DNA of 64,000 nt from the NCBI RefSeq assembly GCF_037975245.1, contig NC_092567.1, positions 25,643,376-25,707,375 of the forward strand, read 5' to 3'. A model generated the notes under the pieces. It saw nothing but the letters and a program-made list of their open reading frames with translations, did no database searches and was not told the origin of the DNA. Positions 9,193 to 12,100 of the stretch are shown here, one piece after another. Within the stretch, counting starts at the first letter, position 1. Each line of letters begins with the position of its first letter. Source of the DNA: Apostichopus japonicus (Eukaryota; Echinodermata; Holothuroidea; Aspidochirotida; Stichopodidae). The translations under genes were made by a program, and so were the position numbers.

Positions 9193-12100
9193 GTATGCAT
9201 ATTTTTATACTTGCCCAAGATGGGTTCGTTACGTAAACGTTAATATAATATAATATATATATGTATATATATATATATATATATATATATATATATATGT
9301 ATATATATATATATATATATATATATATATATATATATATATATATATATATATATATATATATATATTATAGTCCATTGATAAGTACCATTGAACAATA
9401 TATCAAACACATTCTCTCGATGAAACTGCTGTACTGGTACTAAGTCAACCGTAACTAGTTCATCAGCTTTAAAGAGCTCGGGTCAAATGTCATATTTAGA
9501 TTAGACTCAACTGCTGAGATACTACACCGATTATTTTGGTGTATTTATTTTGTTTTTAATGATGAGGATGTTCTCTACAACATACGCATAACAATTGTGT
9601 CTATGTATGCATGCTGTAACTTAAAAATAATAATGAGATGGGTTTAATAATAATAATTACAGAAAATAATTAATAACAACATTTTATGCAAATTTAAATT
9701 ATACAACTATAAATTAGGGTTCGAGAGTTCTTCATATTGAATCATGTGAAATTGTTATAAGTTTGTTAAATGGTGGCTGCATACTTAATTTTTTTCAGAC
9801 AATCAGTAACCATGAATTTGATGGAGGCCTTGACACTTTGGTGAGTTATTTAGGAAGGATAACGTTTCCAGTTGTAACTTGTAACATCGATATATCCCAG
9901 GAGCCAAACTTTCAAGATCTTTTCACCAAAAGTACAATTCTCAAAGTTCAAGGTTCCAAGTTTGGAATGGTCGGTTACACAACATCACGTGCCCCTTTAC
10001 TTTCAGACACAGGTAAGAAAAGAAATTGATTTACAACCATTTCATTATTCTTGGGATTAATATTACATATTTGAAAGTGAACGAGTTTAGCTAATTTTTG
10101 ATCAATAATTTTCTTGCCATACGATATCAAAATGCAGTAACAATATAGTTCATTAGTATGACTACACAATTTTCATTTCAATCAATGAAGTAAAAGGTAA
10201 AATTGTGCTGTTTTTGAATTTGCTATTTTTCATGTGGTTAATACTATAGTAGGGGAGTATATGTCTTGGCGAGCGAAAATATTACCAATAAAATTGAGTG
10301 GATTTTTTACACGGTATAGTTGAATTTCACTTGAAAAAAATAAATAAAAGAGTTTTCTTGTCTAAATGACAATTCTCTGCAGGGTTGACCAATATAGAAA
10401 TAGGAACTTAGAAAGGAAGGGGAGGGGAGGGGAGGAAAGAGAGCGTTGGAAATGGGGACATTTCTCTCCAATATTGAAATAGGGAAAAGAATAATATCTT
10501 TGACTCCCTTATTTCTAGCTATGATGTACTTCCTGACCTTGCTTAATCATTCACTTGGTTCTACCGACGGGCTGAATTCGTCGCCGATTTTCTCATAAAC
10601 CCTAATGCCGATCGACTTCATGTCATTTTCCCATGAAGTATCGTCAAACTGTTTATTGCTGTTGAGGTCGTTGCCGTGTCTGGAAATAATTGAGTTAATT
10701 CTATGTTTACTAAACGTTATGGCGAACTTTAATGACATTTATACATAAAGCTAATTGTATTAGAAGAAAATAAAACAAACGCACCTTATAGCTGATAAAG
10801 AAAACAGAGTCATTTGTTCCGTAATTATTTGTTTCCATTTTGGCCTTAAAAATGCGAGGAAGAGGGGAGGGGGGGGGGGGGGGTGGGCGAGTGGAAAGTA
10901 ACAGGGCGATTGCTTTCCATTATCTTTTATCATTTTTAATCTCGATAACAGGGAATCTGAGATTTGAAGACGAGATACAATCAATACAACTTGAAGTCAA
11001 CAAACTATTGGCAAAGGGTGTCAACAAGATTATTGTGATTGGTACGGCAGACTACAGTATGAACCTTGCAATAGCCAATCAGGTACGAGGAGTCGACATT
11101 GTGGCGGGAGCAGATCCTATGACTCTTCGAACAAAAGGTGTTTATTATATTTATTTTATTGTCTTTTATTTTGATTGCTATAGTCGTGACGAACCTCTAA
11201 GATCATAATGAGATACACTTTATAAACCAAAAGCATGCAGGCAAGGAAGAGCGGGAGCTGATAAGCGAAACTCTGACAGAGGAAAAGGGTACACTGTTAA
11301 ACACCGAATGCTACAAAGCAAACGACTGGCTAATGCAGCCTATCTGGGATAATATTATTGTCCCATTACATTATAACCGTACGATAGCATATCTTGTTTT
11401 CTATATACAACGGTAGAGTTAATTATGGTGCTTTCTATCTAATTGCAAGGGAAATTAATTCCTCCCCCCGCCCAGAAAAAAAGGTAGCGTAATTACTCTC
11501 CATGATATTGTCACGTTGTATTTACGTTAATGTAAATATTACATTAGTTCATAAGTGTCATATGGAATGGGGTTTAAATTGTCTCTATATAGACAATTGA
11601 GTTAATTGATAAATTGATTCGCTGTGAAATATATAGACACGTTAATTTAAGCCAAAACTGATGCCGTGATTTAAGTAATAACATTACGTGTTTTTTATCA
11701 CGTGACCGGGAGGAAATACCTTCACAATACCTTCTTAACAGGTAAGCCCGACCCGACCGATGAGCAGGTCCATGGCCATAACTACCCTACCGTAGTCCGT
11801 CCCGAAAACTCAGACGAAATGGTCTTGGTAGTCCAGGTCCAGATATTCTTCAGATACCTCGGTTACCTCAAAGTTACCTTTGATGATGAAGGAAAAATTA
11901 TTGGATACAGCGGAAAGCCGATATCTTTGGATTCATCTGTAGAACAAGGTATTAACGAAAGAAATGCGTATTTTTGCATAATATTTTTGCATAATATAAG
12001 AATTTCACATGTATTGCTTAATGTTTTCTGATGCGACCCGTTTTAGCCTTTCCTGTGGATATGCATATGTAATATTTCATTTATAGGTGTGGCGTAGAGT

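Follow-up and report, generated by a model that had tools for sequence, protein, structure and literature searches.

A sea cucumber CD73 paralogue without its second-metal histidines: a candidate nucleotide-binding pseudoenzyme

CD73 (NT5E) sets the extracellular balance of AMP and adenosine, and pseudoenzymes are a known kind of protein. Does a CD73-like gene that lacks two metal-binding histidines, found in a 64-kb stretch of sea cucumber DNA (the window, at its full length), still encode an enzyme, or has it become something else? The gene, here called W, runs on the + strand from 8860 to 16116, and its eight exons splice to 571 codons with zero internal stops and AG/GT borders at 7/7 introns. 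The initial annotation had proposed an intact 571-codon frame and had bounded one exon at 10952 and 11137; the frame is intact, and both borders are exact, with AG before and GT after. Residues 16-546 of the 571 align to CD73 at E = 1.2e-129 (HMMER against solved structures, the best matches being CD73 entries), and Pfam matches both family domains, 5_nucleotid_C (PF02872) at 138.7 bits and Metallophos (PF00149) at 28.6 bits (cut-off 21.5). Judged by this homology over both domains, W is a CD73 (NT5E) paralogue by descent. Within the window, tblastn revealed no second copy of the gene, the sole other match at E ≤ 1 being 19 residues long (E = 0.72).

Elsewhere in the window, the - strand has a 397-codon open frame (52087-53277); a scan of 256 of its residues, counted from the first Met, gave a match to rhodopsin-type GPCRs (7tm_1, E = 1.5e-20). 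A second frame on that strand, 587 codons long and rich in Thr, Ser and Glu (29637-31397), contains a 75-bp unit present seven times (30459-30985), equal to a 25-residue repeat; no Pfam match was found in the 586 residues scanned. At 6319-6873, the trinucleotide TCA is repeated in 185 copies with 98% matches and leaves several frames open on each strand. A 17-bp unit, ACCTAACACTAACCCTT, occurs in 34 copies with 95% matches at 60933-61510, where GC skew within the window is strongest (-0.336).

We take the metal ligands of CD73 to be D36, H38, D85, N117, H220 and H243, and H118/D121 to be its catalytic His-Asp pair. Four of these six ligands are present in W. Exon 1 (8860..9192), whose hydrophobic N-terminus looks signal-like by eye, carries D30, H32 and D83 for human D36, H38 and D85, and exon 2 (9799..10012) carries N115 for N117 together with the catalytic pair, as H116/D119, within the sequence SNHEFD, in which human G116 is replaced by S. 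The positions of H220, H243 and N245 all fall in exon 3 (10952..11137), where the HMMER alignment places T214, D237 and M239. The T214 codon, at the position of the second-metal ligand H220, is ACG (11044..11046); the codons for D237, P238 and M239 (11113..11121) stand for H243, S244 and N245, with GAT at 11113-11115 and ATG at 11119-11121. Splicing, codons and alignment thus bear out the replacement of the GHS and GGHSN motifs that had first drawn attention to this gene. The loop itself, GGHSNTFLYT in human, is largely altered over 242-250 (G242A, H243D, F247L, L248R, Y249T and T250K). His243 and Asn245 of CD73 contact the alpha-phosphate, according to the available part of PMC8677862. Because two second-metal ligands and the phosphate-contacting residues are gone, W would be expected to lose catalysis, and the state of its metal site leads us to class it as a candidate pseudoenzyme of the CD73 family rather than as a 5′-nucleotidase.

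That these replacements are an artefact of the gene model, the assembly or an unseen alternative exon seems to us scarcely credible, even though the W model rests on genomic sequence. A single sequencing error cannot give T214, because ACG matches neither His codon at any of the three bases. The same T and D recur in two paralogues described below, C and D, and the exon plan is repeated in the paralogues, with the caveat that their borders were picked with the W phases imposed. The 64-kb window contains no further exon-3-like stretch on either strand that would restore GHS and GGHSN: tblastn with seven histidine-keeping versions of exon 3 gave, at E < 0.4, the known exon alone, and neither GH[SAT]G nor GGH[ST][NDQS] occurs in any of the six reading frames.

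The metal domain ends in exon 4 (11742..11948), and 5_nucleotid_C starts in exon 5 (13016..13267), where R351, N387 and R392 (human R354, N390 and R395) are kept. The base-stacking Y411 (human F417) lies in exon 6 (14551..14706), and Y496 (human F500, likewise base-stacking) lies in exon 7 (15185..15385) with the ribose-binding D502 (human D506). Exon 8 (15950..16116) supplies the C-terminus, the stop and a hydrophobic tail that looks GPI-signal-like by eye. R354, N390, R395, F417, F500 and D506 are the residues that contact AMP in the human CD73 structure, as described in the accessible portion of PMC8677862. At these positions W reads R N R Y Y D against human R N R F F D, such that 6/6 AMP-contact positions are retained, F417 and F500 as Tyr. 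The earlier description of the remaining ligands, the catalytic His and the pocket Arg, Asn and Asp as kept was correct by alignment.

Retention of this pocket bears on whether W could be a surface adhesion protein or matrix receptor with no remaining use for nucleotides, its C-terminal domain being kept for fold or dimer contacts only. CD73 has been reported as a matrix receptor with roles beyond catalysis, binding tenascin C, fibronectin and laminin, in the part of PMC5837971 that was available. We nevertheless consider this reading improbable for W, in which each of the six AMP-contact positions is either unchanged or conservatively substituted although such positions are dispensable in the family: paralogues L (G N I F Y D), M (G T Q Y Y G) and N (G N R Y Y A) have each lost two or more of them.

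The distribution of changes along the protein also differs between its two domains. As a reference set we picked human CD73 and paralogues B, F, G, J and K, all of which keep both late histidines, with M excluded as having lost pocket residues. Of the 127 positions invariant in this author-chosen set, W has changed 18/83 in the metal domain and 1/44 in the nucleotide domain (Fisher p = 0.0031; Bonferroni 0.04 over 13 sequences). With the ligand columns removed, the counts are 16/75 and 1/44 (p = 0.0052; Bonferroni 0.068). W is the sole one of the 13 tested sequences with a domain-bias p below 0.05; no significant bias was found in A (7/83 and 3/44; p = 1.0), C (10/83 and 6/44; p = 0.79) or D (14/83 and 3/44; p = 0.17). 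Measured by plain identity, W is no nearer to its paralogues in the metal domain than in the C-terminal domain, in contrast to most ligand-keeping pairs.

We searched the genome, probably that of Apostichopus japonicus (671,581,487 bases in 35 contigs), for further family members. The W protein gave 83 matches genome-wide, and PF02872 gave 34, every one of them in loci already found with the protein; 13 of these correspond to the last domain exon (12 genes and fragment I). The family thus comprises, as a lower bound, at least 12 intact genes, W included, and a decayed copy, H, with fragment I. The 12 genes were modelled from 17 genomic stretches, with borders picked by script using the W phases and five borders (in G, J, K and L) set by hand; because the W phases were imposed, the shared exon phases are partly built in. 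Every modelled paralogue exon has an AG/GT border at or near the expected place and no internal stop, a regularity that the imposed phases do not produce. The B model lacks its last exon, which lies beyond the stretch used, K has a short last exon with no hydrophobic tail, and G has one intron with a GC donor. The same genome holds five COX1 pieces on contig C29 (G000:C29:14745-31219), apart from the mitochondrial contig C35; these pieces may represent a copy in the nuclear genome or another mitochondrial-like sequence. C35 itself translates sensibly under genetic code 9, the code of echinoderms, and has the gene order of sea urchins and sea cucumbers.

Identity among the paralogues is 35-61%, and the metal-site states vary widely. 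Reading positions 36/38/85/117/220/243/245 in human numbering, W is D H D N T D M; A (C7:24.55 Mb) is D H D N N N F; C and D, which lie together at C7:25.44-25.46 Mb, are H H D N T D H and H Q D N T D H, respectively; L is D H D Q H R P and N is D H D T H R N. By comparison, M is D H D N H H N, the four genes B, F, G and J are D H D N H H D, and K is D H D N H H S. Of the 12 intact genes, six (W and five of its eleven sisters) are missing one or more of the six metal ligands. Both late histidines are lost in 4/12 (W, A, C and D) and kept in 6/12, so histidine-keeping paralogues, a check suggested at the outset, do exist in this genome. All six ligands are kept in six genes, among them M, which is without much of the AMP pocket. 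W, C and D have SNHEFD and T220/D243 in common. C and D have in addition changed D36 (and D also H38), and they carry His at 36, 86, 244 and 245; the further changes at D36 and H38 fit a catalysis that is no longer needed.

Several of these paralogues are unusual in other respects. M (C21:6095163-6101885) keeps the six metal ligands and N245 and has R354G, N390T, R395Q and D506G in the pocket, a combination that suggests an active metal site with another substrate. In L and N (C7:15.01-15.03 Mb and C3:23.06-23.08 Mb), N117 is replaced by Q or T, H243 by R and R354 by G, with frames intact. H (C7:26.390-26.399 Mb) is a decayed copy of nearby G on the opposite strand, 90-97% alike in most exons and disrupted in exon 1. 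A fragment with exons 6-8 stands apart at C7:26.418-26.425 Mb.

We placed these losses on a tree built from the 12 proteins plus human CD73, from which the ligand columns and their neighbours had been removed (552/642 columns kept). Support was 100/99 for C+D and 98/96 for L+N; the forks joining A+W+C+D (91/94) and W+C+D (86/79) fall below a strict support threshold. Kept and lost states require two changes on this tree, compared with an average of 4.6 for shuffled labels, and a number as low was reached in 5/500 shuffles (with the 'lost' label). As read from this tree, ligand loss is a family event, shared by the four linked C7 paralogues (A, W, C and D), with L and N having lost ligands separately.

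Is W then a pseudogene in the making? W has changed 19/127 of the invariant positions; among the seven genes left out of the reference set, higher totals occur in L (34) and N (21) alone. Because the paralogues are only 35-61% identical, pairwise dN/dS was replaced by a branch codon model of seven genes (W, C, D, A, B, G and F; 508 codons). End branches carry 13-25 neutral changes per codon, some at the optimiser's upper bound, and since synonymous sites are saturated, omega values are unreliable and we used the tests against omega = 1 alone. That value was rejected for the W branch (LRT 24.3, p = 8e-7), and likewise for A (p = 8e-15), C (4e-4), D (0.016), B (4e-4) and G (0.009). The short stem of C and D, with a similarly unreliable omega of 0.28, showed no difference from 1. 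In comparisons between branches, subject to the same saturation, W did not differ from the others (p = 0.73), and A had a lower omega than the remaining branches (p = 0.017). W has eight intact exons with AG/GT borders and a C-terminal domain changed at 1/44 positions, and real decay in this family looks otherwise, as in H, which is 90-97% like G and has a broken exon 1. We therefore hold incipient pseudogenization to be very unlikely. With frames and splice borders intact, omega = 1 rejected and the C-terminal domain almost unchanged, the W gene is not dead, as the initial annotation had maintained.

We also compared W with more distant relatives. A scan of 84,980 bacterial and archaeal genomes, using seeds that cover D85 and N117 and not H220, H243 or N245, confirmed at least 550 relatives, of which the best 80, mostly alphaproteobacteria and hence a narrow sample, were compared. 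Both H220 and H243 are present in 80/80 of these best relatives (78 by automatic reading and 2 by tblastn alignment). Because the two histidines are likewise present in human CD73 and in 6/12 family genes, their loss in W exceeds chance. Among the same best 80 of at least 550, position 245 is His in 77/80 (75 by automatic reading, 2 by tblastn alignment), and the commonest state at position 500 is Tyr (69/80 rows by automatic reading, two rows being misframed).

These data bear on a further alternative, that W has a changed metal centre in which one metal is held by D36, H38, D85 and N117 (perhaps with D237), and in which phosphate esters are still hydrolysed, maybe with another substrate or metal. 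Since D36, H38, D85, N117 and the His-Asp pair H118/D121 are all kept in W, such a rebuilt one-metal centre is conceivable; the histidines at 36, 86, 244 and 245 round D85 in C and D form a plausible single site, and His245 is the norm among the best 80 of the at least 550 bacterial relatives. W itself, however, has Met at 245 and gains no histidine in the loop, much of its conserved 242-250 loop is altered, and H38 is lost in D. We accordingly judge a changed centre to be unlikely. The initial annotation had left 'pseudoenzyme or changed metal centre' side by side; a pseudoenzyme is the better-supported of the two, and sequence by itself cannot separate them.

Together, these findings suggest that W is a secreted, probably GPI-anchored CD73 paralogue whose phosphohydrolase activity is lost or nearly so and whose C-terminal domain still binds nucleotides, a reading that we consider probable. 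With the second-metal ligands H220 and H243 gone, along with the phosphate contacts of H243 and N245, hydrolysis would be abolished or nearly so, and the kept C-terminal pocket would retain nucleotide binding. The protein would be found at the cell surface, where it may bind nucleotides without hydrolysing them, serving to sense or sequester AMP/ADP or to modulate an active paralogue as its partner. The inactive human form CD73S, which acts on CD73, and the reported matrix-receptor role of CD73 would fit such a non-catalytic function. Two observations run against lost catalysis. Four first-shell ligands remain in W, and D237 might itself bind metal; furthermore, H118/D121 are kept in W, A, C and D, which counts against a dead enzyme, where this pair should drift.

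More tentatively, the sea cucumber may possess a set of CD73-derived, GPI-anchored nucleotide receptors. The group on the chromosome-scale contig C7 (A, W, C and D), without a catalytic metal site and with the AMP pocket kept, could sense or buffer extracellular nucleotides or control active CD73 paralogues rather than cleave these nucleotides, L and N having lost ligands separately; we regard this wider proposal as possible and still doubtful. As long as work is done on the active enzyme, the non-catalytic roles of CD73 are difficult to isolate. A genome in which some family members have lost ligands and kept the pocket, and others have both, would offer a direct test of such a role.

CD73 homologues have been reported across animals, and the available part of that report names no inactive ones (PMC9857879). 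The main text of a study of gene families in Holothuroidea does not contain the word 'nucleotidase' (PMC13228809). In a partial literature search, which is weak evidence of absence, we found no CD73 group with two separate metal-ligand losses in one animal genome and no paper on the W gene family.

Several known systems can be set beside W. E. coli UshA (1ush, E = 6e-24) and the 5′-nucleotidase 2z1a (E = 9e-89) belong to the same two-domain family, and both presumably retain the dimetal ligands. Human CD73/NT5E (PDB 4h2i, 7qgm and others) resembles W over nearly its full length, with 43% identity, both domains, the His-Asp pair and the AMP pocket, and differs from it in that W has T, D and M for H220, H243 and N245 and an altered neighbouring loop. 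Closer to W, paralogue A is likewise without the late histidines and keeps the pocket, but has N at both positions rather than T and D. Paralogues C and D share T220, D243 and SNHEFD for GNHEFD with W, and differ in the additional change of D36 (with H38 in D) and in their histidines at 86, 244 and 245. Finally, an inactive form of CD73 has been described in human: the splice form CD73S (NT5E-2) complexes with CD73 and promotes its degradation, as stated in the portion of PMC7174602 available. As described there, CD73S lacks exon 7, is cytoplasmic and does not dimerise, whereas W is a separate gene that differs from active CD73 by point changes.
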